A DNA stretch of 63,865 bases from a virus: positions 1-63,865 of IMG/VR virus record IMGVR_UViG_3300031857_000159; one strand, 5' to 3'. A model generated the notes under the pieces. That model saw only the letters and a program-made list of their open reading frames with translations, was not told where the DNA came from and did no database searches. Of this stretch, positions 6,452-62,860 are shown one piece after another. The translations under genes were made by a program, and so were the position numbers. Every line of letters starts with the position of its first letter. The first letter of the stretch is position 1.

Positions 6452-8692
6452 ATGATCTTTCCAAAACAGGATATTCCAGACAAGGATAAGACGTTAGCAT
6501 GGGTGAAACTTCACTTAAACTACGCAGAAACTATCCTTAACAGAAGAAACAATATCTATTCAATAATGAGTAGATTGTATAATACTTATAATGGTATTAA
6601 AAATGCTGACGCTTTACGATTCATAGGTAAAACGTATGGAAGAGAAAATAAATCTAAATTTATATCATACCGATTAGGCAGAAACAAGTTAGAATTACTT
6701 AAAGGTGAATACCTTAATCAAGCGCTTAAACCAACAGTTACCACAATAAATTCAGATGCTAAGACTAAGAAACTTGACGAGGCTGATTTAGTTCGCGGAG
6801 CATTAATTGCTCGTAAAGAATTATCTAAGTTAAAAGAAGTTGGGGTTGATGTATTGGAAGGAATGGAATTACCGGAGGGCGATCCAGATGAGGTATGGAA
6901 CCAAATGACTTTCAAGGATAAGAATGAGCACGTTATGCAATTGATATTGGAAAACGGTATCTCTGAATTAGACATGAAGAATAAGCTTTCTAAGAATTTT
7001 CTTGACCTTGAAATTACATCAATGTGTTATGGTAAGATTGATATTGATTTAGAAGGTAACGTTAATTACATTAAGATTGACCCTCGTGATGCTATTTTTG
7101 ACGAAATAGAAGGTGACGACTTTATTGAAAGAGCGCCATTAAAAGGAGCAAGATACAGAATGACTATTTCCGAAATATTAAGGAAATACGATTTGACAAA
7201 AGAACAAAAAGAAATGTTGAAAGGTCTTGAGAATACCGGTAACCAAAATGCAGGTACAAGAAGAGCAACAACATATCAGATAAACGGTGACTTATGTATG
7301 GACGTAGTGCATATAGAATGGATTTCTTATGTTCCGACTTATTATAAGCTATCTCCAAAAACACAAAAACAATTAGAGTTAGATCCAAGTTCTGAATACT
7401 ACACAATTCAAATGGACGCTGCCGAGTATGAGAACAATAGAGAATATTACGATAAGCTTGTAGAAAAAGGCAAGTTACTAGCAATAGAAACTAAATGGGC
7501 AGAAGATATTAGAGAGGCTGTTAGAATTGGCGGTATTATAAGTGTTGACTTAGGACGTAAAAAATTTCAGCCTAGAAGAGTTGATAACCCTAATAGGGTA
7601 GTTGATATGTCTTATGTTGGATACTTATTTAATACGGTAGACGGAATAAGAGTATCATTACAGCAAATTGTAGAGAATTTTGATTCAGCTTTTGATATTT
7701 GTATGTATCAAATTCTTAAAGAATTGAACATTGCAAAAGGAAAAGTTATAGGTTATAACAGAGCAGCTTTACCGCAAAAAAGAACAATGAAAGAAATTAT
7801 TTACGACGTAGTAAATGATGGTTTTGTTGACTTCGATACTTCTGCGGATGGTAACGAATCTGGTAGAGAATTGAATTTAAGAGATTTGATTCAAGTATTA
7901 GATATAGGTTTATCTAGTTCATTCCAACAATTAATCATGTTAAAGAATGATATACGTCAAACTTTAGATTTAATTACAGGGATTAACGAAAACAGACAGG
8001 GTGATATTGCGGCAAGTTCTACCGTTACGAACGCTCAAATAGCAATTACAGCATCTAAAAACATTACTACTCCATTGTTCTACGGAATGAATAAGTTTAC
8101 CGAAAGAGTATTAATGAAAATGTGTGAGTATTATAAATTGTCTTATGGTTTCTTTAAAGTAGAAAAAGGTAAGCAGATTTTAGGCGATACACAACAAAGA
8201 TTTTTGGTAGTTGAAAAAGAAATAGGTTATCAGGATTATGGTGTTGCAATTCAAGACGGCGGAAGATACGCTGAAATGAAAAATAAGATTATGGCTTTGG
8301 CTCAAGTATCATTAAACGCAAAAGAAATAAGATTAGAAGATTTGATGCAATTAGAAACTGCTGAATCATATACTGAAGCTAAAAACATATTAAAGAATGC
8401 GTGGAAGTCTATACAACAAGTGGCTGCTGAACAGCAACAAAGACAGATAGAAGCACAACAGCAAATGCAACAACAACAATTGCAAATGCAACAACAAATG
8501 GCTTTAGAGAATAGAGAAGATATGCAAGCTTCAAGAATTGATGAGATTAATGCTAAAACAGAAGGTCAAATAAGAATTGACGATAACAAAATGGGTAAAC
8601 AAATGATTGTTGATACAAATAATATAGAACAAAAATCTGTTTATAGCGATAAAAATATGGGAGGCACACAGCCCCCAATTCCTCCGATGTAG
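6452..8692 (+). CDS. Portal protein
   Basis: A 746-residue protein following the terminase, the usual place and size for a podovirus or crAss-like portal that forms the dodecameric DNA gate and packaging docking site. The N-terminus has D-K-T-L-A-W-V and a helical region; the middle carries alternating strands and helices (e.g. D-P-R-D-A-I-F-D-E-I near 210, D-L-I-T-G-I-N-E-N-R-Q-G near 505, the conserved helix before the clip region). The C-terminal 100 residues are extremely Gln-rich and helical (about 650-700), as expected for a barrel/crown. Followed by a terminator at 8717. Confidence 0.8.
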   Translation: MIFPKQDIPDKDKTLAWVKLHLNYAETILNRRNNIYSIMSRLYNTYNGIKNADALRFIGKTYGRENKSKFISYRLGRNKLELLKGEYLNQALKPTVTTINSDAKTKKLDEADLVRGALIARKELSKLKEVGVDVLEGMELPEGDPDEVWNQMTFKDKNEHVMQLILENGISELDMKNKLSKNFLDLEITSMCYGKIDIDLEGNVNYIKIDPRDAIFDEIEGDDFIERAPLKGARYRMTISEILRKYDLTKEQKEMLKGLENTGNQNAGTRRATTYQINGDLCMDVVHIEWISYVPTYYKLSPKTQKQLELDPSSEYYTIQMDAAEYENNREYYDKLVEKGKLLAIETKWAEDIREAVRIGGIISVDLGRKKFQPRRVDNPNRVVDMSYVGYLFNTVDGIRVSLQQIVENFDSAFDICMYQILKELNIAKGKVIGYNRAALPQKRTMKEIIYDVVNDGFVDFDTSADGNESGRELNLRDLIQVLDIGLSSSFQQLIMLKNDIRQTLDLITGINENRQGDIAASSTVTNAQIAITASKNITTPLFYGMNKFTERVLMKMCEYYKLSYGFFKVEKGKQILGDTQQRFLVVEKEIGYQDYGVAIQDGGRYAEMKNKIMALAQVSLNAKEIRLEDLMQLETAESYTEAKNILKNAWKSIQQVAAEQQQRQIEAQQQMQQQQLQMQQQMALENREDMQASRIDEINAKTEGQIRIDDNKMGKQMIVDTNNIEQKSVYSDKNMGGTQPPIPPM

Positions 8693-8716
8693 TTTAGTTT
8701 TACTTTGACAAAAGAG

Positions 8717-8744
8717 AGCTCTGATTAACGTCAGGGCTTTTTTT
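8717..8744 (+). terminator. Intrinsic terminator after portal gene
   Basis: An 8-bp stem (8717-8724 with 8731-8738, one G-T pair), TTAACG loop, followed by seven T. It separates the packaging operon from the scaffold-capsid operon. Confidence 0.75.
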
Positions 8745-8784
8745 GTATATATTTATAAATGTTTATTACTTTTCAACAAGTTAT

Positions 8785-8824
8785 CCTTATTTAGACTAAT
8801 TAAAAACAAAATTATTTATATTTG
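8785..8824 (+). promoter_or_regulatory. Candidate late promoter of the capsid operon
   Basis: TATATTTG at 8817-8824 (Bacteroidota -7 element) with the 11-mer CCTTATTTAGA at 8785-8795, 21 bp upstream. The same pair, spaced by 20 bp, lies before the abundant virion gene at 13609, so this may be a late-promoter form in which the usual TTTG is replaced. Confidence 0.55.
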
Positions 8825-8839
8825 TTTAAAATTCATTAA

Positions 8840-10006
8840 ATGCAAAAGAAATATTACAGCCCCGATGAAGCCACTGGAGGTGGTGAGGCAACGGCGACAG
8901 CGCCCAATTTCGAGCTTTTGACCGAAGATTTATTTGAACCAAATTACAATGCAACTGCGGTAAAAGAGGAAAAAAAGATTGAGGAAAAGTTAGAACAAGA
9001 AACAAAAGAACAAGTTCCTGTGGATTTAAACTTACAGGAAGAAATTAAAGAAACAAAAAAGGAAGAGGTAAAAAATGAAGAAAAGAATACTGAAACCAAG
9101 CAAGAAGCATCAGCCGAAACTACATCAAATGATTTCGAATTAAAGTTAGACGACACTAACATTAATGGAGATGAAGAAAGTAGTGTTTGGGTTGAAACTG
9201 CTAAAGAATTGTTTGGACTTGAGGTTCAAGAAAACTCTTACGAGGCATTTGTGGAAGCCGCTAAAGTTGCGGTAGAGCAAGCTGAATTAAGAGGAATGGA
9301 AACAACTCTTCAAAAAGAAGTAGCCGAACTACCAATAGAAGCTCAAGTTGATTTCTTGTTATTACGTGAAGGTTATACAAGAGAACAAATAAATGAGCCA
9401 ACAAAAGAAATTGATACATTATTAAATTATAGCAATATAGACCTTGTAAAAAAAGATTTAGAATTACAGGGAATGAGTGAAAGTTTAATAGAAAAAGAAA
9501 TTGAATTATTAACCGAAAAAGGATTAATAGATCACGAAGCCGAAAAACTTAAATTAGTTTTGCATAATGCAAGAGAATCGGTTTTAACAGAAAGACAGCA
9601 ATTAGCGGAACAAGTTGCAACAAATTATCACGCAAGATTGCAGACTGAAAGACAAGCCCAAGCTGAACTCATGTCAAACGCCTTTAACACAGTTAAGGAT
9701 TTCATGGGACAACCAATTAACGAGAATGCTCGTAAACAATTGGCTAACAGATATGCAGAGGGTGCGTACGACAGTATTTTCAATGATCCTGTTAAAAAAG
9801 CCGAGTTCATCATGTATCATCACTTTGGCGAGCAAGCTGCAAAGAACATACGCAACAAGGCGTTAGAAGAAGGCAGGGAGAAAGTAACTAAACATCTTTC
9901 AAACGTCCCTCCTGTTCCGCAGCAAAACAACGCTAAACCTATTGCAAAACAAAATGCTAAGACAACTTCAGGCTTTGAATCTTTAAGTTCTATGTTTGGT
10001 GATTAA
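8840..10006 (+). CDS. Scaffold protein
   Basis: A 388-residue protein located between portal and major capsid genes. The N-terminal third (about 30-110) is almost entirely Glu/Lys/Thr and low complexity; the remainder is long helices rich in Glu, Gln and Leu with coiled-coil character, ending with a short F-E-S-L-S-S-M-F-G-D tail that could bind capsid protein. Position, acidity and helical build match phage scaffolding proteins that template procapsid assembly. I see no protease motif. Confidence 0.7.
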   Translation: MQKKYYSPDEATGGGEATATAPNFELLTEDLFEPNYNATAVKEEKKIEEKLEQETKEQVPVDLNLQEEIKETKKEEVKNEEKNTETKQEASAETTSNDFELKLDDTNINGDEESSVWVETAKELFGLEVQENSYEAFVEAAKVAVEQAELRGMETTLQKEVAELPIEAQVDFLLLREGYTREQINEPTKEIDTLLNYSNIDLVKKDLELQGMSESLIEKEIELLTEKGLIDHEAEKLKLVLHNARESVLTERQQLAEQVATNYHARLQTERQAQAELMSNAFNTVKDFMGQPINENARKQLANRYAEGAYDSIFNDPVKKAEFIMYHHFGEQAAKNIRNKALEEGREKVTKHLSNVPPVPQQNNAKPIAKQNAKTTSGFESLSSMFGD

Positions 10007-23345: not shown

Positions 23346-23390
23346 AATAATTATACTGACTATCAGTTAATTACAAAATAATGTTTTTAA

Positions 23391-23439
23391 ATTTGTAACT
23401 TTATACAAATATTTGCGTTAAACATTATAAAAACTATCA
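23391..23439 (+). promoter_or_regulatory. Phage promoter/operator module and AACTATCA element
   Basis: Palindrome ATTTGTA-N6-TACAAAT at 23391-23410; TTTG inside it is 18 bp from TGCGTTA (23414-23420); AACTATCA at 23432-23439 lies 3 bp before the ATG at 23443. This module is nearly the same before the minus-strand gene at 49201 and similar before 55008. Confidence 0.55.
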
Positions 23440-23442
23440 AAC

Positions 23443-23772
23443 ATGAAAACAACAATCAAAAATCAAGACTACTTTAATGGGTTAATTCAAGGCGTTGTCG
23501 CTATGTATAAATTAGGCGAATGTATAAGTGACGACTTAAATCTTGAGTGGAGAATCGAATTTGTAGACAGTAAAAAAGCAAATGTTTATTGCGATTATTC
23601 ATCTTATTCTTGTTATGTATTAGCAAATCCCGGTGATGAGGATTTTGCGCCAGAGTACGAACATATTAATGTTAGAGATACAATGGTTACTCAAATAGAT
23701 AACATTGAAGATGTTGATCATATAATAGACAGAATTACAATAGGAATATTAGCAGAATTACCAAACGTTTAA
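23443..23772 (+). CDS. Hypothetical acidic protein
   Basis: A 109-residue acidic protein with no membrane segment or known motif, located between the lysis cassette and the second structural block. Its promoter module is the one shared with the early genes at 49201 and 55008, so it is probably an early or middle gene placed inside the late region. Function unknown; position and promoter would fit an anti-host or regulatory protein. Confidence 0.6.
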   Translation: MKTTIKNQDYFNGLIQGVVAMYKLGECISDDLNLEWRIEFVDSKKANVYCDYSSYSCYVLANPGDEDFAPEYEHINVRDTMVTQIDNIEDVDHIIDRITIGILAELPNV

Positions 23773-30202: not shown

Positions 30203-32854
30203 ATGAAATCAGAATTATTAAGAAGAGCGTTAATGTCTAAAATGGCAAATGGCGGTAATGTAGGTGGGGATAATCCTAATGCCGATGTAAATTTTTTTAC
30301 GCAACAGAAAATGACGCCTCAACAATGGGTTGATTATGCGAAAAAACAAGGATGGGAATTGTTTGAATCTAAACTTAGCGCCCCAATGGAAGAACAAATT
30401 AAAAGAGGTAAATATTTTGAATATGTTAATCCAAAAGAATATACAAGAATGCCTGATGGTCGACTTGTTAAAATTTCAGATGTCGGAAAAACTACTGTTG
30501 ATTACAAAGGTGATTCAACTTATAAACCTATTATATCTTACGGCTATAAAGATACAGATATAAAAGATAAAACAATTGAGAGTAAGCCTAAAGGTTCGGC
30601 AGTTGTACTGTCAAAAAAGCCCGATATATATTTTTCTGAAAAAAATCCAAATGTTACAACTTTTGTAAAAAAAGGAGATTTTGGTCAAATGGATACAAAA
30701 ATTTATAAAGACAATAAAACTGGAAAAGAAATAGATGTGTATAAATCATATTCAGAAGGTGGAAAATACAATCCTGTTTTTATTGAAGAACAACAACCTA
30801 CTGTTCAGTCTAAAATGGCTATTGGTGGCAATGTAGGAATGGAAGGTAATTTAGGTGGTGATGATAAAGACAAACCAAGAACAAGAAAAATTGGTCAATC
30901 AGGAGTTGATTTAACTGCTGATATTATCATTAATAAAGACCCAAGCCAAATACCAAAAGATGTTAATTATGGAGGGTGGAATGCTTTTCAAAGTTTTGTA
31001 AAAAAACAAACATTAGATGGTGAACCATTTGTAGGGAATCCAAGACTAAATACAACTGAAGGCAAGCAGTTAGGTCAAAACATGATTGATACTTTTAATA
31101 GTTCTGATTATGTTAAAAAATTTCCTCAAAACAAAATAACTCCAGAACAAGTTCAAGCTGTTCAGCAATATCATAAATTAGCTGATCCAAACGTTCAGAC
31201 AGAGGGGTGGTTTGGTAGCCAAACATCAAGAATGAGGTATCCTCAAGCTACTGTATATTATATGGAAGATAAGGATAAAAATATTATAAGCAAAGAAGGT
31301 TATGTTCCTGTTACGTGGGGAAATAAACAATATGTTACGCCTGCGTCTTCAACTGGAAATGTTCAAGCTTATGAACTTTACGACCCAAAGAAACACGCTA
31401 ATTTATTGCAAAAACCTATTGGGTCAGCATATCAGTCATACGCCAATGTTTATAACCAATTTGTTCCTAAACAAAACGCTTCTGTTCAACCTAAAAATAA
31501 AGGTGGGGTAATTAATAAATATCAAAACGGTACAACTAAAGACGGTGTAGGTGAAAGCAAACCTGATTTAGCAGGAATATCGTCATTAGGGGGTGAACTA
31601 ATTGGTACAGGTATTGATGCTTATGATAGAAGAGAAGGAAGAAGTTCTATTGCGGGTCAATCTGCTTCAGGTTTTTATAAAGGAGCTGGAAAAGGTGCGG
31701 CTTTTGGTATGAAATTAGGTGGACCAAAAGGGGCAGCTATTGGTGCTGCCGTTGGGGGATTATATGGCGGAATAAGTGGTGCCATGTCAGGCAAAAAAGA
31801 AAAAGAAGAGCGTTTAGGTGCTGTAAAACAAGAAGCTTACGCGAAAGCAACAGGGGCTCAAGAATCAATGAATCCAAATAGAGGTCCTGTTAAATTAGAA
31901 TCATATAATGAACAAGATACTAAAACCGGATTAGCTGGATTATTCGCAAAAGGCGGAACCATTAAAGGCGAAGGCACAGGAACTTCTGATAGCATAGTTA
32001 CTGATATAAACAAAAGAGGTATTCCTGAAGGTAGTTTTATTACTCCTGCTAAGAATAATGAAATGGCAAAAGGAATTAGAAGAATAATATTAGGACAAAA
32101 TCCTGATAAAGTTGCTGAATTTAAAAAAGGAGGTACTACTAACTCTGATAAAGTTGCTGTAAGTAATGGCGAACATTTGTTTACTCCTGCTGAAAAAGAA
32201 AAAATCATTAAGTATTTAGGAAAAGAAATATTAGAAAAGTTAGCTCCTGAAGCCGAAGAAAATGAAATGGAAAAGAAAAAAGGTGGCATGATTAAACGCG
32301 CCGATGGTTCCTATTCAAAAAGAGGATTATGGGATAACATTAGAGCAAATACAGGTAGTGGTAAAAAACCAACTGCTGAAATGCTTAAACAAGAAAGAAA
32401 AATTGTTGCTGAAAAAGCAAAAGGTGGTTACGTAGTAAAAAGGTCAAGTGAAAGAAAAGGTAAAACTCACGTAGTAACTGGACCTGACGGAACTAAAAAA
32501 TACTTTGGAGATTCTAATTTAGGACAACATCCTAATGACCCTGCAAGAAAAAAAGCTTTTTATGCAAGACACGAAAAGAATTTGAAAAAAAATCCGTACT
32601 TTAGAGCATTCGCAAGAGAAACATGGGCAGAAGGCGGAACGGTAGGAAGTAAGATGAATAAAGCAAAAGGTGGCGAATTAACGAAGTCAAAAGCAAAAGA
32701 AATATTACACGATAAATCTGTTCACGGAAAGCCACTGACTGACAAGCAAAGAAAGTACATGGGCTATGTAGCAGGAGGCAAAAAGAACATGGGCGGTATT
32801 GTAGGAAAATACGCTATGGGAGGAAATGTAAACAGAGATTGGGATTGGGGTTAA
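30203..32854 (+). CDS. Internal virion protein with repeated Lys-Gly-Gly motifs
   Basis: An 883-residue basic protein with at least ten short repeats of the type [MAK]-x-x-G-G-[NTGY]-[VI] (e.g. near residues 13, 208, 434, 583, 647, 693, 735, 812). A glycine-zipper segment near 495-530 (G-A-A-F-G-M-K-L-G-G-P-K-G-A-A-I-G-A) could form a membrane pore. The last 130 residues include a domain with G-D-S-N-L-G-Q-H-P-N-D-P-A-R and Y-A-R-H-E-K-N. Likely packaged and ejected or lining the capsid; inferred from position and composition. Confidence 0.5.
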   Translation: MKSELLRRALMSKMANGGNVGGDNPNADVNFFTQQKMTPQQWVDYAKKQGWELFESKLSAPMEEQIKRGKYFEYVNPKEYTRMPDGRLVKISDVGKTTVDYKGDSTYKPIISYGYKDTDIKDKTIESKPKGSAVVLSKKPDIYFSEKNPNVTTFVKKGDFGQMDTKIYKDNKTGKEIDVYKSYSEGGKYNPVFIEEQQPTVQSKMAIGGNVGMEGNLGGDDKDKPRTRKIGQSGVDLTADIIINKDPSQIPKDVNYGGWNAFQSFVKKQTLDGEPFVGNPRLNTTEGKQLGQNMIDTFNSSDYVKKFPQNKITPEQVQAVQQYHKLADPNVQTEGWFGSQTSRMRYPQATVYYMEDKDKNIISKEGYVPVTWGNKQYVTPASSTGNVQAYELYDPKKHANLLQKPIGSAYQSYANVYNQFVPKQNASVQPKNKGGVINKYQNGTTKDGVGESKPDLAGISSLGGELIGTGIDAYDRREGRSSIAGQSASGFYKGAGKGAAFGMKLGGPKGAAIGAAVGGLYGGISGAMSGKKEKEERLGAVKQEAYAKATGAQESMNPNRGPVKLESYNEQDTKTGLAGLFAKGGTIKGEGTGTSDSIVTDINKRGIPEGSFITPAKNNEMAKGIRRIILGQNPDKVAEFKKGGTTNSDKVAVSNGEHLFTPAEKEKIIKYLGKEILEKLAPEAEENEMEKKKGGMIKRADGSYSKRGLWDNIRANTGSGKKPTAEMLKQERKIVAEKAKGGYVVKRSSERKGKTHVVTGPDGTKKYFGDSNLGQHPNDPARKKAFYARHEKNLKKNPYFRAFARETWAEGGTVGSKMNKAKGGELTKSKAKEILHDKSVHGKPLTDKQRKYMGYVAGGKKNMGGIVGKYAMGGNVNRDWDWG

Positions 32855-32871
32855 TATAAAAACATTATACC

Positions 32872-33783
32872 ATGAAAGAGAAAAGAAGAATAACATCGGA
32901 CGGTTACTTTGAAGTAAGTAAAGATGGCGGTAAGAGTTATGAAAAAACAACAATGAAGCCTACGCGTCAAGAAGTTTCAGAATGGAGTAATATGCAAAGC
33001 TTTAAAGACGGAGGAACTCCTAAGTCTAAAAAAGGAGGCGTAAGAGAAAAATATTATTTCGATAATATGATACCAAAAGAAGTTACTTTGCCTGTTGGGG
33101 GTACAGATTTTTCAAAAATGTTTGAAAAAACTTCTAAGCCAAATAATCTTGAAGACATGGATGTTAAAGACACTGAACTACCAAGTTTAACTTCTTTATA
33201 TCCTAAAAAACCTGTTGCGGAAAGAAAATACGGATCAGGATTAGAAACCTTATTAGGTGCAGCGCAAGCAGGTTATGGCTTACAGCAATTAATGAAAGAT
33301 AAACGACCTGTTGGTGAAATTGACCCTACGTTTAGCAGATTAACGGATGAGGCTGTTGCTGCTTCAAGATACGGATTTACTCCTGAACAAAGAGCAGCAT
33401 TAAATCAAGATATAGTAAACGCAAGAATAGCTCAACAGGCTCAAATTAATCAATTAGCAGGTGGTAGCGCAGGTGTTGGATTAGCAAATGTAAGAGCAGC
33501 ATTGAACGAAGAATTAATGAATAAATACAAGCTTGCGTCGGAAGACGAACAAAGACGTATGCAAAAAGCACAACAAGCGGCAGGATTATCGGCGTATAAG
33601 GCACAAATGAGTAGAGGGTTATTTCATGACAAAATGAATGAATTTATGCAGAAACAACAAGCTGGTGCCGAGTTATTAGGCGCAGGTATTCAAAATGTTG
33701 TTGGAGCAAGAAGATACCAACGTGAAAGAGAAGCACAGGATCAGATAAATAAAATGATGTACGGAAATTCATATTTAGGATAA
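32872..33783 (+). CDS. Internal virion protein
   Basis: A 303-residue protein: charged N-terminus with two G-G-x motifs like those in the 30203 protein (D-G-G-T near 47, K-G-G-V near 55), then from about 150 a long Gln/Ala-rich helical region, ending in a tail with Q-I-N-K-M-M. The composition is that of internal (ejection) proteins of podoviruses. It lies just before the homing endonuclease. Confidence 0.5.
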   Translation: MKEKRRITSDGYFEVSKDGGKSYEKTTMKPTRQEVSEWSNMQSFKDGGTPKSKKGGVREKYYFDNMIPKEVTLPVGGTDFSKMFEKTSKPNNLEDMDVKDTELPSLTSLYPKKPVAERKYGSGLETLLGAAQAGYGLQQLMKDKRPVGEIDPTFSRLTDEAVAASRYGFTPEQRAALNQDIVNARIAQQAQINQLAGGSAGVGLANVRAALNEELMNKYKLASEDEQRRMQKAQQAAGLSAYKAQMSRGLFHDKMNEFMQKQQAGAELLGAGIQNVVGARRYQREREAQDQINKMMYGNSYLG

Positions 33784-48676: not shown

Positions 48677-49201
48677 TTATTTAGTCCAATCAAATTTTAA
48701 ATAATTAAAAGATAACAAATGGTATTGAAAAAATTTTTCGTGATGTTTGTCTGGTATATAAGTTTTGTGTCTAAGCTTAATTGATTTTATAGGAACAACA
48801 AACTCTTCAGGCTTTAAATTTTCTTCCGTAGTCAAATACCATGTAAAGTCTAAGGGATTTAATAATTCTTTACTTAATTTAAAGTTTACAGTTTTATCTG
48901 CAAGCTCAAACTGAATAACTCTTAAATCATCATAATCATAATTGTTTATGGTTTGAAATCCTAACGCAATTACTTTTACGTTATAGTCTACATCATACTT
49001 AACAACTAACCAAACGAACAATGTATCTTCTATATCGTTCTGATTAATGAATCCACTTAACATTTTTGATGTAAAATAAACTCCATCTTCGTAAACAGAA
49101 TCAATAGTTTCAAATTTTTCGTACAAATCTGTAATTGGACCCTCTTGAGCGCTAATTGTAAGCCCTGCAAACAATAAAGCTGTTGTGATTAATTTTTTCA
49201 T
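48677..49201 (-). CDS. Exported protein of unknown function
   Basis: A 174-residue protein with a Sec signal peptide (M-K-K-L-I-T-T-A-L-L-F-A-G-L-T-I-S-A-Q, cleavage likely after Ala18 before Gln-Glu, the site style of Flavobacteriia). The mature part is acidic and beta-rich (D-Y-D-D-L-R-V-I-Q). No lipobox. The gene has its own phage promoter module (49205-49255). Exported phage proteins made early may alter the envelope or block superinfection; here that is only a suggestion. Confidence 0.65.
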   Translation of the reverse strand: MKKLITTALLFAGLTISAQEGPITDLYEKFETIDSVYEDGVYFTSKMLSGFINQNDIEDTLFVWLVVKYDVDYNVKVIALGFQTINNYDYDDLRVIQFELADKTVNFKLSKELLNPLDFTWYLTTEENLKPEEFVVPIKSIKLRHKTYIPDKHHEKFFQYHLLSFNYLKFDWTK

Positions 49202-49204
49202 GAT

Positions 49205-49255
49205 TGATAGTTTTTATATAACCTTTAACGTAGTAATTTGTATAAAGTTACAAAT
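49205..49255 (-). promoter_or_regulatory. Phage promoter/operator module and AACTATCA element
   Basis: Minus strand: palindrome ATTTGTA-N6-TACAAAT at 49255-49236, TACGTTA at 49232-49226 (18 bp after TTTG), AACTATCA at 49212-49205, 3 bp before the ATG at 49201. The module is almost identical to that at 23391-23439 despite unrelated genes. Confidence 0.55.
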
Positions 49256-49276
49256 AATTTTATAAAAAAATAATTT

Positions 49277-54409: not shown

Positions 54410-55008
54410 TACTTAGTAACTACTGATACTTCTTTGTAAAACTTAATACCTGCAATAATATCACCATCGTTAAGTGATTCTTTGTTAGCCTTAATCCATT
54501 CACGAACTTTTGCCTCGTCAACCATTAAGAATTGAACAGGAACTCTGCTAAGGTCAACAACATCAAATTTCCAATTGTGTCTGATGTTAGATGCTTTTTG
54601 TGATTCTAACATAGCTAACTCATGGTTAATGCTGTCTTCAAATAAACTGTTAGCTGGAGCTTGCTGTTTAAGTTCTTGCTCTCTTCTTAGTAATTCTAAG
54701 TTCCATTCCTTAATTTGATTTTTAAGGTACTGAATAGAATTGTTAAGAGGTTCAGATAAATCTTTAGCAACTGCATCAACTTTTTTACCTGCATCAAGGT
54801 AAGGCTTTTTAAGTTCTGTCCTTTTCTCTTCAATCAGTTTTAAGTGATTGTTTACTGCGGATAACTTTTGATTTGCAATAGCTAAAGATACATCGTCTGT
54901 AACTTTAATTTGTAACGCTTCTTCAGATAACTGAATGAATACGTCTTTTGTAGATTGTAGTTTACTCCATTCTAAATCTACTCTGTCGGTTGTTGTGATT
55001 GTGTTCAT
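54409..55008 (-). CDS. Coiled-coil early protein
   Basis: A 199-residue protein: helical coiled coil from about 35 to 125 (Q-K-L-S-A-V-N-N-H-L-K-L, L-K-N-Q-I-K-E-W), then a beta-rich C-terminal domain. It looks like phage recombination-associated Gp157/DUF1351-type proteins. Its ATG follows a phage promoter module and the AACTATCA element. First gene after a promoter, so it probably heads the replication operon part 55008-47094. Confidence 0.5.
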   Translation of the reverse strand: MNTITTTDRVDLEWSKLQSTKDVFIQLSEEALQIKVTDDVSLAIANQKLSAVNNHLKLIEEKRTELKKPYLDAGKKVDAVAKDLSEPLNNSIQYLKNQIKEWNLELLRREQELKQQAPANSLFEDSINHELAMLESQKASNIRHNWKFDVVDLSRVPVQFLMVDEAKVREWIKANKESLNDGDIIAGIKFYKEVSVVTK

Positions 55009-55011
55009 GAC

Positions 55012-55100
55012 TGATAGTTTTTATATGTATAACGTAAAAATTTGTACAATGTTACAAAATTAATAATCAATTTGCAAATTATTTTTGTAAAATCTTACAA
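55012..55100 (-). promoter_or_regulatory. Phage promoter with two palindromes
   Basis: Minus strand: TTTGTA-N6-TACAAA at 55058-55041, TACGTTA at 55036-55030 (18 bp after TTTG), AACTATCA at 55019-55012, then GTC-ATG. A second palindrome, TTGTA-N6-TACAA, lies at 55100-55085, about 42 bp upstream, right at the stop codon of the GroES-like gene. Confidence 0.55.
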
Positions 55101-56833: not shown

Positions 56834-58438
56834 TTAAAAGAATGGATTACCATTATTGTTAGGTGTGTATTTATTTACTACTTCTTTATTTTCTCTTTTT
56901 TCTATTTCGTTAAGCGCCATTTTAAATTCAGATATTGTTACTCCATTACTAACGTCGTAACCTTTCCATTTTAATAAACCAATTTGTTTTTCTGTTGCTG
57001 GTTGTGCGCTGATAATTTCACTACACATTTTCTTTGTGTATTCTACATTAACTGTATCATATCCTAAACGAGCTATCCATGCTAATTGTTTTTCGGTAGC
57101 AGGCTCTTCCATCTTAATAGAGTTACTAATATAAACTTTTGGTAACGCGAATAAATCAACTTTAACGTCTTTTTTAGATGTAGCTACTACATAGGCTATC
57201 TTTCTTTCTCTTTCATCAATTAAGGCTTTCTTTTTAGCCTTAGTCATGAATACTTTCTCTTCCGTTGCTTTGCCTGAATCTAAGCTCCAAGCGTTAATTA
57301 GCTTGTGCCTTGTTGTACTATCAACAAAATCAAGTATGACACAATTCTGCCCGTATTTAGCAATAAAGTTCTCATCTTTTAAACGGGTGCCTCTGCCGAT
57401 ACATTGCAAATATTTAGATAACGACTTAGTCGGAGCGCAATTACCTATAACTCCCGTGTTTCTGTGATCGAATCCAGTAGTTAAAATACCTACATTAGTT
57501 AATACTTGTATTTTACCCGCTTTAAAATCTTTAATGGTTTGTGACCTATCTCCTGTTGATTCTTCATCAGACGAAACAGCATTACAAATAATTCCTTGTG
57601 ATTTAAACTCTTCTGCTAAATGTAAGCTATGTTTAATATCAACACAAAAGAAAATACCCTGTCTTCCTTCTGCGTATGTTTTGTACGAATCTACAATTAG
57701 TTTATTCCTTTGAGGTATATCTACTTCGTTTGATAAATCTTTAGCGTTAAATTCACCGCCTGTTGTTCTGACGTTATCAAGTGATAAATCAGTTTTAATT
57801 CTTACAGCATCTAACTCGCACAAGTAACCGTCTTTAACTCCGTCCGCAATATCGTAACTATAAACTATTTTATCAAACATATTACCTAACTGCATACCAT
57901 CTAAACGCGTAGGCGTTGCCGTTAATCCCAATAATAGTTTAGGTTCAAAGTATTTTAAAGGATCGGAGAATGTACGACTAAGGAATAGGTGAGCTTCGTC
58001 ACAGATAATAGCATCAAAATGGTCTTTTGGTAATTTATCTAATCTTCTGTATAGCGTTTGAGCAGAAGCCATTACTACGCTTCCATCAGGATAAAAAGCA
58101 TCTGCCTTTATTAATCCCATTCTGAATTTAATACCTCTACATCCGAACATTCCCGAACCATTATGGACCCAATTAATGAATCCTATATCTTCAACAGCAT
58201 CAGTAAGCTCCTTATCAAACTTTTCGGATAAAAAGGCTAAGGCTGATTGTTGTACTAATTCTTCGGTATGGGTAATCCACAATACACGCTGAAAGTTAAA
58301 TTGTTCTATGGCTTTAACGGCGGTAAAGGTTTTGCCTGTGCCGGTTGCCATTACTAATAACTGTTTCTTAACGCCATTGTCAAGTTCTTTCTTAACAGCA
58401 TCAATAGCTTTGATTTGATAATCTCTTAATGGTTTCAT
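56834..58438 (-). CDS. SF2 DNA helicase (UvsW/SSL2-like)
   Basis: A 534-residue helicase: Q motif-like L-R-D-Y-Q-I-K-A-I at 4-12, motif I A-T-G-T-G-K-T (31-37), motif II D-E-A-H (147-150), L-L-G-L-T-A-T-P-T (about 169-177), G-I-L-T-T-G-F-D-H (near 325) and motif VI Q-C-I-G-R-G-T-R-L (near 350). A C-terminal region of two short repeats (E-K-Q-L-A-W-I-A-R-L-G-Y-D and E-K-Q-I-G-L-L-K-W-K-G-Y-D) may bind DNA. It likely handles branched DNA during replication or recombination. It is the first gene of the leftward operon and is preceded by a long leader. Confidence 0.85.
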   Translation of the reverse strand: MKPLRDYQIKAIDAVKKELDNGVKKQLLVMATGTGKTFTAVKAIEQFNFQRVLWITHTEELVQQSALAFLSEKFDKELTDAVEDIGFINWVHNGSGMFGCRGIKFRMGLIKADAFYPDGSVVMASAQTLYRRLDKLPKDHFDAIICDEAHLFLSRTFSDPLKYFEPKLLLGLTATPTRLDGMQLGNMFDKIVYSYDIADGVKDGYLCELDAVRIKTDLSLDNVRTTGGEFNAKDLSNEVDIPQRNKLIVDSYKTYAEGRQGIFFCVDIKHSLHLAEEFKSQGIICNAVSSDEESTGDRSQTIKDFKAGKIQVLTNVGILTTGFDHRNTGVIGNCAPTKSLSKYLQCIGRGTRLKDENFIAKYGQNCVILDFVDSTTRHKLINAWSLDSGKATEEKVFMTKAKKKALIDERERKIAYVVATSKKDVKVDLFALPKVYISNSIKMEEPATEKQLAWIARLGYDTVNVEYTKKMCSEIISAQPATEKQIGLLKWKGYDVSNGVTISEFKMALNEIEKRENKEVVNKYTPNNNGNPFF

Positions 58439-58439
58439 T

Positions 58440-58894
58440 TATTACCTGATAGTTTAATGTTCTAAAAGCGGTTTTAAATAGCCGTAGACCGCTACTACGC
58501 TAACTTACGATTTAGTTTCTTAGTGGTTGGTTGTGAATGCTATTCACATTAACCAAACTTGAAAGCTTACGTTCTCTGCGCGCATCAGAGATTTTGTAGC
58601 CAAGACAGGTACTGCCCCTGTTTCTTAGTATTTTGCTTTTTATCGCGCAACTATGAGTTACTTTTACTCTACCTGACTATGTAATCGCGCTTCAAGTTAT
58701 TTGTTTCTTACGATACGTGTAGCACCTATATTATTACATTAATGCTATTCTACGCTATGTAATAAGCCTCAACCATCAATCACAAACCTGCATAAAACAG
58801 GACTTACTTGAAACGCAACAATTTCGCAGGGGCTATGATTTTCTTACGGGAATAGAGCATAACAATTACCCTGCAATGCTTTTAAAGAACTAAT
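58440..58894 (-). ncRNA. Large structured RNA candidate (helicase leader)
   Basis: About 455 nt between a good promoter and the helicase ATG with no gene. On the minus strand at least eight hairpins can form: 58826-58831 with 58869-58874; 58787-58790/58798-58801; 58731-58739/58757-58765 (9 bp); 58645-58651/58684-58690 enclosing 58655-58658/58666-58669; 58605-58609/58617-58621; 58573-58578/58586-58591; 58527-58538/58542-58556 (12 bp, 3-nt bulge); 58467-58472/58488-58493. A long-range helix 58691-58697/58806-58812 encloses two of them. UAAGAAA occurs four times outside these stems. Less AT-rich than neighbouring non-coding DNA. Confidence 0.6.
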
Positions 58895-58899
58895 TTGTG

Positions 58900-58931
58900 C
58901 AAAATTACAAATAAAATCATTACTTTCCAAA
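58900..58931 (-). promoter_or_regulatory. Promoter of the structured RNA/helicase operon
   Basis: Minus strand: TTTG at 58931-58928, 20 bp, TAATTTTG at 58907-58900. Same spacing and -7 sequence as the promoter at 1325-1356. Predicted transcript start near 58894. Confidence 0.65.
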
Positions 58932-59259
58932 TAAATTTTTACAAAAGAATAATGATTGTTGAAAACATTATTTAATTACCTGTATTTATAAGCTATTTTA
59001 ATACCTCCTCAGAACTATCGGTATGTTACAAATTAATTTAGAATAAATCTAAACAAGTATCAATTTATCAGATAGTTAAGTATTAAATTGTAAAAACTTT
59101 ACAATTACATAAAAATAATCAGCTTAATTATCAGACAGTTACAACTTATGTTAATGTAAAATTGTAATATGTATTGATTTTAAGCGTTTTATATTTTACA
59201 TTTGCGTATAAATTTTGAATATTTTCAGAATTTATATAAATAATATAAAAACTATCAAA
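58932..59259. promoter_or_regulatory. Divergent early control region
   Basis: About 330 bp between the leftward RNA promoter and the rightward gene at 59260. It has a 21-bp palindrome (59086-59106: nine-base arms around AAC), two copies of TTATCAGAyAGTTA (59065 and 59128, 63 bp apart) and further TTGTA/TACAA half-sites. A -7-like element TAAATTTTG lies near 59209-59217 for the rightward transcript; AACTATCA is at 59250-59257, just before the GTG. No gene is present. Operator, origin, or both are possible. Confidence 0.5.
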
Positions 59260-59814
59260 GTGGGAATCAACAGACAGGGAAACAATCGCAGGGTTCAAAA
59301 GACTGAAATTGAAACTTTATTGGATTTTAGAGAACTATCAATTCATAAATCCAATAGAGTTATTACTAAAAACTTTACAGCGTATATAACAGGATCCGAA
59401 ACAAATCTTGCAAGACTACTGACGTTTTTAATATTTGAAGCAAAGAGAAATAACGTATTAGAATTTAATACTCACTTGTTAGTTAAGTACGGGCAATATT
59501 TAGAAGCTGTTCAAAATAAGTTTGGTAATGAAGTTAAGACGCGTAAAACGGTAATGTTTAACAGAAATGATTTTCAGCAGTTAGTAAGGTTAGGAATTAT
59601 CATCCCAATTGTACCTAAAGAGAAATTGTTTTTAATAAACCCGGCGTTAACATACCATGAAGGTTACTACAATGAACAAGCAACTTACATGAAAGCTTAC
59701 GAGAACATCTATGCGCTGTATGTTTTTGGAGGATACGATAAAAAGGTATTACATTCTTTAATAGTAACGGCGGCAAAAGAGTTTTATAATAATTGTTTAA
59801 ATAAAAATATATGA
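59260..59814 (+). CDS. Early protein with winged-helix-like fold; possible replication or regulatory protein
   Basis: About 184 residues from the GTG at 59260, chosen because AACTATCA precedes it in the same position as in other genes. The centre (V-K-Y-G-Q-Y-L-E-A) is helical and the last third contains F-L-I-N-P-A-L-T-Y-H-E-G-Y-Y, a pattern seen in RepL/RepA-like winged helix proteins. It opens the rightward early operon. Function is inferred only from neighbourhood. Confidence 0.55.
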   Translation: MGINRQGNNRRVQKTEIETLLDFRELSIHKSNRVITKNFTAYITGSETNLARLLTFLIFEAKRNNVLEFNTHLLVKYGQYLEAVQNKFGNEVKTRKTVMFNRNDFQQLVRLGIIIPIVPKEKLFLINPALTYHEGYYNEQATYMKAYENIYALYVFGGYDKKVLHSLIVTAAKEFYNNCLNKNI

Positions 59815-61827: not shown

Positions 61828-61844
61828 AAATTTAACACTTTTTA

Positions 61845-61876
61845 TTTGGAAATTAAATAATCATTTCCTAAATTTG
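61845..61876 (+). promoter_or_regulatory. Promoter of a small RNA or attenuated leader
   Basis: TTTG at 61845-61848, 20 bp, TAAATTTG at 61869-61876: a full match to the Bacteroidota consensus, with the same spacing as at 1325 and 58900. The transcript would begin near 61881. Confidence 0.7.
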
Positions 61877-61880
61877 CATT

Positions 61881-61938
61881 CATACACTTTTTTAAAGTAG
61901 AGCGGGGAAGTTTACCTGATAGTTCTTCTCCGCTTTTT
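61881..61938 (+). ncRNA. Candidate regulatory small RNA ending in a terminator
   Basis: About 58 nt. A 10-bp stem (61901-61910 with 61925-61934; one G-T) with a 14-nt loop (61911-61924), followed by TTTTT: an intrinsic terminator. The loop contains TTACCTGATAGTT, fully complementary to 13 nt of the helicase leader (minus strand 58454-58442), and its TGATAGTT is complementary to the AACTATCA element before six other gene starts. The alternative is an attenuator for the gene at 62003. Confidence 0.55.
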
Positions 61939-62002
61939 AAAGTTAAAAACATTCAGGGACGAAAGTTAACAGAGTATCGTTTTTTTAAACGCAACAACAA
62001 AA

Positions 62003-62860
62003 GTGAAAGACATTGTTTACACACATACAGAAATTAGCTCTGCCGTAAAAGATGGTCAAAAACCATTGCGTAAAGTTGTTGTTACGCCGGAGGGCTTTCG
62101 TCATTTAAGAATAAATCCGCAAGTAGTTAAGGTTATATCCGATGAGGGTAATTTAAAGTTACTTGCGGTATTTTTAAGACTAAAATCTGTTTACAGTAAT
62201 TCTTGCATATACAATGTAACTGACAGTAAATTGGCGGCGATATTAAAAGTATCACGTCAGACAGCAAACAGGTTAAGAAACCGTTTAGAGCGTTTAGGCT
62301 GGGTAAAGTATCACGGTAACAACTTAATGTTATTAAAGGTAACAGAAATAAGCCATGAGTATATTCAGAAAGACGTTGAAGGTTTCAGCAGAAAGGCTAA
62401 TGTATATTTAGAAGTAAAGAGTAAACAATTAAAAGACATTGAAACCTATTTAAGGTATTTAATAATAAAGCAGAAGGAGATAAACAAGAACTACTTATTG
62501 GAGTTACGTCAAGACCTATCTAATCCGAAGAGTGTTAAGCAATTTAAAAAGTTAGCAGAGCGCTGTAAGAAATTAGGCATAACAGCCTTAAACGGTGAAA
62601 TTGACTATCAGCTTCAAATAAGTTATAAAGGACTTGCAAAGCTTCTAAACTGTTCAGTAGGATCCGCCTACAATTACCTCCGTAACCTCGCGCGGAAAGA
62701 AGTTCTCAAAGTACACACCAAAAGAGAAGTAATAAAGAAGAACATACAAGAACATATATGGAACGACTTCCTGTCCTACCAAGATGTATATAAGAACTGC
62801 TTCTACTCCTACGGATACATAATAAAGAACCACTGCAATAAATATAACCTATTAGCATAA
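62003..62860 (+). CDS. Two-HTH DNA-binding protein (replication initiator- or regulator-like)
   Basis: A 285-residue protein starting with GTG. Two winged-helix-type segments are visible: about 72-110 (V-T-D-S-K-L-A-A-I-L-K-V-S-R-Q-T-A-N) and about 207-240 (I-S-Y-K-G-L-A-K-L-L-N-C-S-V-G-S-A-Y-N). A helical linker lies between. Similar layouts are seen in plasmid or phage replication initiators and repressors. The second half uses C-ending codons (TAC, AAC, TTC, TCC) far more than the first half, which matches the C-rich DNA that follows. It is preceded by the small-RNA/terminator region. Confidence 0.6.
   Translation: MKDIVYTHTEISSAVKDGQKPLRKVVVTPEGFRHLRINPQVVKVISDEGNLKLLAVFLRLKSVYSNSCIYNVTDSKLAAILKVSRQTANRLRNRLERLGWVKYHGNNLMLLKVTEISHEYIQKDVEGFSRKANVYLEVKSKQLKDIETYLRYLIIKQKEINKNYLLELRQDLSNPKSVKQFKKLAERCKKLGITALNGEIDYQLQISYKGLAKLLNCSVGSAYNYLRNLARKEVLKVHTKREVIKKNIQEHIWNDFLSYQDVYKNCFYSYGYIIKNHCNKYNLLA

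Follow-up and report, generated by a model that had tools for sequence, protein, structure and literature searches.

A predicted phage small RNA with a terminator loop complementary to a motif at phage gene starts

What could be the function of a hairpin whose loop is complementary to a sequence found in front of several genes of the same phage? Such a hairpin lies in the gap 61828–62002 of the window, the 63,865-nt stretch of DNA analyzed here (IMG/VR record IMGVR_UViG_3300031857_000159). According to the ORF list, this gap includes no ORF of at least 40 amino acids. The window represents a freshwater virus, probably with Bacteroidota hosts, and has promoters of the Bacteroidota type. Matches of its large terminase (TerL) in the phage collection are all very distant, at 20–25% identity, and many of them are records of crAss-like phages. 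Among the genome contigs searched there was no TerL relative, and thus no host was identified.

The hairpin is preceded by a sequence resembling a promoter. The full promoter claimed in the preliminary description at 61845–61876 on the plus strand is indeed present: TTTG at 61845–61848 is followed by N20 and by TAAATTTG at 61869–61876. This fits the Bacteroidota −33/−7 promoter and its revised −7 consensus, TAHHTTTG (PMC6847099). In Flavobacterium johnsoniae, the G of the −7 box is at −5 (PMC6847099), and this places the putative transcription start at around 61881. The promoter pattern is seen seven times in the window against 4.25 expected, which is weak evidence by itself. Its conservation in the diverged relative G003, with a changed −7 box, counts for more than this number. 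The predicted RNA would extend on the plus strand from 61881, a start taken from the −7 box, to around 61939, an end taken from the terminator, and would be approximately 58 nt long. The transcript is thus predicted from the promoter and the terminator. In sequence, both the window and G003 have the layout of an independent transcription unit, a promoter together with an intrinsic terminator.

The terminator hairpin occupies 61901–61934 on the plus strand. The 10-bp stem and 14-nt loop described previously were both found: the arm AGCGGGGAAG at 61901–61910, the loop TTTACCTGATAGTT at 61911–61924, and the arm CTTCTCCGCT at 61925–61934, followed by a T-run. The stem is G+C-rich and begins 20 nt after the inferred transcript start. 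The segment folds with a minimum free energy of −17.7 kcal/mol (z −2.7 against shuffled sequences). The loop, which is mostly unpaired in the predicted ensemble, holds the putative seed TGATAGTT at 61917–61924.

Viral contigs were scanned with TerL, the HTH protein encoded downstream of the hairpin, and the helicase as queries. The scans gave the near-identical contigs G001 and G002, the diverged 68.6-kb contig G003, and more distant contigs. The HTH protein of G003 is 69% identical to that of the window, and a hairpin is seen at the same position, upstream of the HTH homologue. Both arms of its stem are changed, GGAGGGGA and TCCCCTCT against AGCGGGGAAG and CTTCTCCGCT in the window, and the pairing is retained as an 8-bp stem. 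Chimeric stems, with one arm from each phage, fold worse than the native ones. CCTGATAGTT in the loop is identical between the two phages. The promoter region is conserved as well, while the 5' tail is diverged and longer in G003. A changed stem around a constant loop is what selection on the loop of an RNA hairpin would be expected to leave, here seen in two lineages, as the independent hairpin sequences are only two (window/G001/G002 and G003). A loss of complementarity in related phages had been named beforehand as refuting the proposal; G003, the relative with the locus, retains the complementarity.

The gene downstream of the hairpin, at 62003–62860 on the plus strand, encodes an HTH protein (HTH_Crp_2 by domain matches, with weak similarity to a replication initiation protein and a DnaD-like loader). 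In the window as in G003, the hairpin is directly upstream of this gene, no match to the promoter pattern is seen between 61940 and 62003, and AAAAACATTCAGGGACGAAAGTTAACAG, just past the hairpin, is also conserved. These facts are consistent with an attenuator or operon terminator, in which the hairpin ends the rightward operon, controls read-through into the HTH gene, or both, and the loop has no function in trans. Attenuation of this gene, the rival already named in the preliminary description, keeps some probability, as transcription coming from upstream of 62003 is probably also ended by the hairpin. We nevertheless consider it unlikely, since it leaves unexplained the promoter directly before the hairpin, the stronger conservation of the loop than of the stem, and the exact match between the loop and the complement of the most frequent start-site motif. 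Unsystematic inspection brought up no alternative antiterminator pairing. As a separate observation, the conservation of AAAAACATTCAGGGACGAAAGTTAACAG (61946–61973) in G003 comes close to that of the loop, and neither a repeat nor a partner of it was found.

The complement of the loop, AACTATCA, is overrepresented in the window, with 13 matches against 3.58 expected; none of 100 shuffled sequences reached 13. Seven of these copies sit 0–8 nt before a start codon, all in the same orientation. The motif precedes 6 of the 87 called genes in the window and 7 of the 100 in G003, and shuffled versions of the 8-mer average 0.1. Among 8-mers with at least two G/C, AACTATCA is the commonest near starts in both phages; poly-A-like 8-mers are commoner. 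The starts with the motif are 58438, 55008, 49201, 1250, 681, 23443, and 59260, seven in total, which agrees with the earlier count of six more starts beside that of the helicase.

On the minus strand, the motif lies before the helicase ATG at 58438 (58447–58454, here as AACTATCAGGTAA), before the gene at 55008 (55012–55019), annotated as exonuclease/Gam-like based on weak PHROG matches, and before the gene at 49201 (49205–49212). It overlaps the ATG at 1250 (1250–1257), the start of a gene of PHROG 37559 with unknown function, and the ATG at 681 (681–688), where it falls within the last part of the preceding coding sequence. On the plus strand, it is 3 nt before the ATG at 23443 (23432–23439) and 2 nt before the GTG at 59260 (59250–59257), the first gene of a rightward operon. 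The 13-mer reported at 58442–58454 was also verified, with 3 nt between the end of its complement and the helicase ATG. The site at 681 is inside an operon, where a stop and a start overlap; this indicates that what the motif marks is the start of translation and not a promoter.

The same site bears on whether AACTATCA could be a DNA operator of a phage regulator such as the neighboring HTH protein. The HTH gene is directly downstream of the hairpin, and further ACTATC/GATAGT sites are present in the intergenic region 59014–59076. An operator, however, would hardly be expected to consist of one non-palindromic 8-mer of constant orientation whose place is fixed relative to the start codon rather than to the promoter and which, at 681, lies within the coding sequence of an operon, nor would it need matched changes of the hairpin arms around the loop. 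This explanation is highly improbable.

The leaders of the motif genes show other features of their own. Several of these genes have a longer promoter/leader block in common (23380–23439, 49205–49260, 55012–55070, G003:14240–14300, and L290 near 9868). Within the block is an inverted repeat, TTTGTAACTTTGTACAAAT...TACGTTA...TATAAAAACTATCA, which may be an operator covering the −7 box. The long helicase leader at 58460–58930 is noncoding and has hairpins that resemble terminators. Part of this leader, near GCGTAGAATAGCATTAAT...AGGTGCTACAC-TATCGTAAGAAACA, recurs in the leader of G003 and could be an RNA element or an origin.

Comparison of orthologous starts shows which part of the complementarity is kept. 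In the helicase leader, the window has aacattaAACTATCAggtaataaATG and G003 has gaaacaAACTATCAaaacaaaATG, with the core kept and the flanks changed. As the G003 leader contains AACTATCAAAAC, the conserved putative pairing is the 8-mer; the 13-nt match at the helicase is confined to the window and its near-identical relatives and is no general rule. The motif is kept in G003 before the exonuclease/Gam-like gene and the gene of the 49201 family, and similar genes of L290 (helicase 61%) have it too. Accessory small genes that differ between the phages each have AAAACTATCA adjoining the ATG. Altogether, 23 distinct gene sequences of the window and related contigs are preceded by the motif in sense orientation, at a distance of −1 to 8 nt, and no reversed copy is seen before any start in the window or G003. 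There are exceptions: the gene at 59260 is without the motif in G003, and so is the helicase of L290.

Covariation between the loop and the start motif was looked for in the more distant relatives, as had been suggested. This would have been the strongest test possible, but no paired change of loop and motif was seen in G017 or G004. In G017 (L271–L274), a relative with 46% TerL identity, a different start motif, AACCAATAA, is located 9–13 nt before around six gene starts, and G004 has ACTAAAAA. A hairpin loop complementary to AACCAATAA or ACTAAAAA was not found in these two contigs.

In G025, an unrelated virus contig, AACTATCA precedes four gene starts within 1.2 kb (32371–33556; locus L053 9606–10791). 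This 37-kb contig has no tblastn match to the window proteins, and no complementary terminator loop was found in it, which indicates that the motif can exist without the RNA. Thus, AACTATCA might be a positive element of translation starts or the site of a phage RNA-binding protein, with the complementarity of the loop being secondary or coincidental. The fixed place before start codons fits this idea, and so does the finding that adenines at set upstream positions promote initiation in F. johnsoniae (PMC6847099). A coincidence is, however, difficult to reconcile with the conservation of the loop in G003 and with the chance of such a match, estimated by hand at approximately 2e-4 (~8 loop positions in the five strong terminators of the window × 2.8e-5 occurrences per position). 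Moreover, a protein that binds AACUAUCA is not expected to recognize UGAUAGUU in a hairpin. Nor is the motif enriched in hosts: in 12 Bacteroidota genomes, 245 matches of the motif at starts were counted against 209 for the reversed control, and a host-wide start signal was rejected. Pairing of the motif with 16S rRNA was set aside as well, as four Bacteroidota genomes lack TGATAGTT in their 16S loci, to which this comparison was confined. A translation-start element with an incidental loop is therefore quite unlikely.

Several other candidates were dismissed. In two other phages, at L101:4116–4123 and L122:8590–8597, TGATAGTT is present just after a tRNA-like sequence, and some gene starts there have AACTATCA. 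These were not retained as further cases, since the motif counts barely exceed the control and a loop of TGATAGTT is not favored by the full fold. In the same contig L101, a tmRNA with an unusually long tag peptide is predicted by ARAGORN at 8643–9029. L281, found via the downstream pattern, is a chance match in the coding sequence of another phage. An IMG/VR pattern scan for the leader gave 102 stretches, mostly with single matches, and a wide spread of the leader among viruses was not accepted.

The reading as a small RNA is the best supported by computation, based on the conservation of the loop amid changes of the stem, the motif at orthologous starts, the fixed orientation and distance, and the lack of an explanation by the host or by 16S rRNA. 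An accessible and conserved seed faces several mRNA starts, seven in the window, with the motif kept in relatives. For the phage small RNA with a terminator-loop seed as originally proposed, the conserved loop and the orthologous motif sites stand; the RNA itself, its pairing, the direction of its effect and its timing are what we infer from them. We hold it moderately probable that this is a trans-acting antisense RNA, which uses its terminator loop as a seed against a phage regulon and represses it, probably by blocking translation. The locus would have a promoter of its own, from which the RNA of approximately 58 nt would be transcribed as far as the hairpin. The single-stranded UGAUAGUU of the terminator loop would pair with AACUAUCA before the start codons of the helicase, the exonuclease/Gam-like protein, the small gene family at 49201, and accessory early genes. 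Pairing just upstream of the start codon would block the loading of the 30S subunit. What matters for initiation in Bacteroidota is the stretch of bases immediately ahead of the start and a lack of structure, not a Shine–Dalgarno sequence (PMC6847099). The RNA could turn down the target set together, for example, ending early expression or restraining a second infecting phage. Since replication and recombination genes are among the candidate targets, the obvious assumption is that an early set is repressed.

The RNA might pair as proposed and yet activate its targets, by opening leaders or stabilizing mRNAs, for example. Pairing beside a start codon usually blocks initiation. The leaders in the window are mostly unstructured near the motif, with predicted unpaired probabilities of 0.67–0.86, and there would be little to open. 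On the other hand, the early genes and the RNA have the same promoter type, and one loop of RepG, a small RNA of Helicobacter pylori, represses or activates depending on the target (PMC8295292). Activation is, on balance, very unlikely. For the antisense RNA, the calculated duplexes are of little help. The 8-bp core duplex has only two G-C pairs, the duplex scores of several motif genes are unremarkable, and for G003, 19 of 300 shuffled loops score equally well. The predicted accessibility of the motif in G003, which varies from 0.26 to 0.85, also counts against the antisense RNA. Duplex energies alone are indecisive because the core is AU-rich. The system is a well-founded prediction rather than a demonstrated regulator.

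Similar mechanisms are known. RepG has its seed in the loop of an intrinsic terminator and acts in trans on an mRNA leader (PMC8295292), as is predicted here from sequence. RepG is, however, a host RNA whose C/U-rich loop pairs with a G-repeat in one leader, whereas here a phage RNA would use a non-repetitive loop against many starts. The loop TTTACCTGATAGTT and the targets AACTATCA do not show pairing of a C/U-rich loop with a G-repeat, and the mechanism may be like that of RepG without membership in its family. The C4 RNA of P1 and P7 blocks the translation of a phage mRNA by pairing in the region of its ribosome-binding site (PMC12197685). It is likewise a phage RNA, with complementary stretches probably in loops, but one target, ant, is described for it, in contrast to the seven candidate targets in one genome here. 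No C4 covariance-model match, nor any other Rfam family at the gathering threshold, was found across the whole window. P22 sar and lambda OOP are short phage antisense RNAs that lower phage gene expression; each is described as acting on one phage mRNA, whereas here the candidate targets are distant genes with a common 8-nt tag. VpdS of phage VP882 and PreS of phage lambda are phage small RNAs acting on other RNAs, in the case of VpdS on both phage and host mRNAs. These two bind Hfq, and the text consulted describes no conserved tag at many phage gene starts. In the literature searched, with preprints and subscription papers largely outside it, no phage RNA facing a tag common to many of its own gene starts was found.

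An RNA with which a phage addresses a tagged group of its own gene starts appears to be new. In the review consulted, the phage antisense RNAs described mostly target one phage gene or host RNAs. It is possible, with somewhat less than even odds, that the regulon is set by an 8-nt RNA tag and controlled by one minimal terminator-like RNA of approximately 58 nt, and that new accessory genes join it by gaining the tag. The tag makes the system directly testable, as both matching 8-nt elements can be altered at once. If one RNA governs the tagged genes of its own phage, it would correspond, at the RNA level, to an early-gene repressor. Gene control in the phages of Bacteroidota, here a distantly crAss-like one, is poorly understood, and the absence of Shine–Dalgarno sequences leaves the start region free for such a device. 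If the proposal is true, this would be a phage-owned code of start sites, read by the RNA of the phage itself, in a phylum without Shine–Dalgarno sequences.
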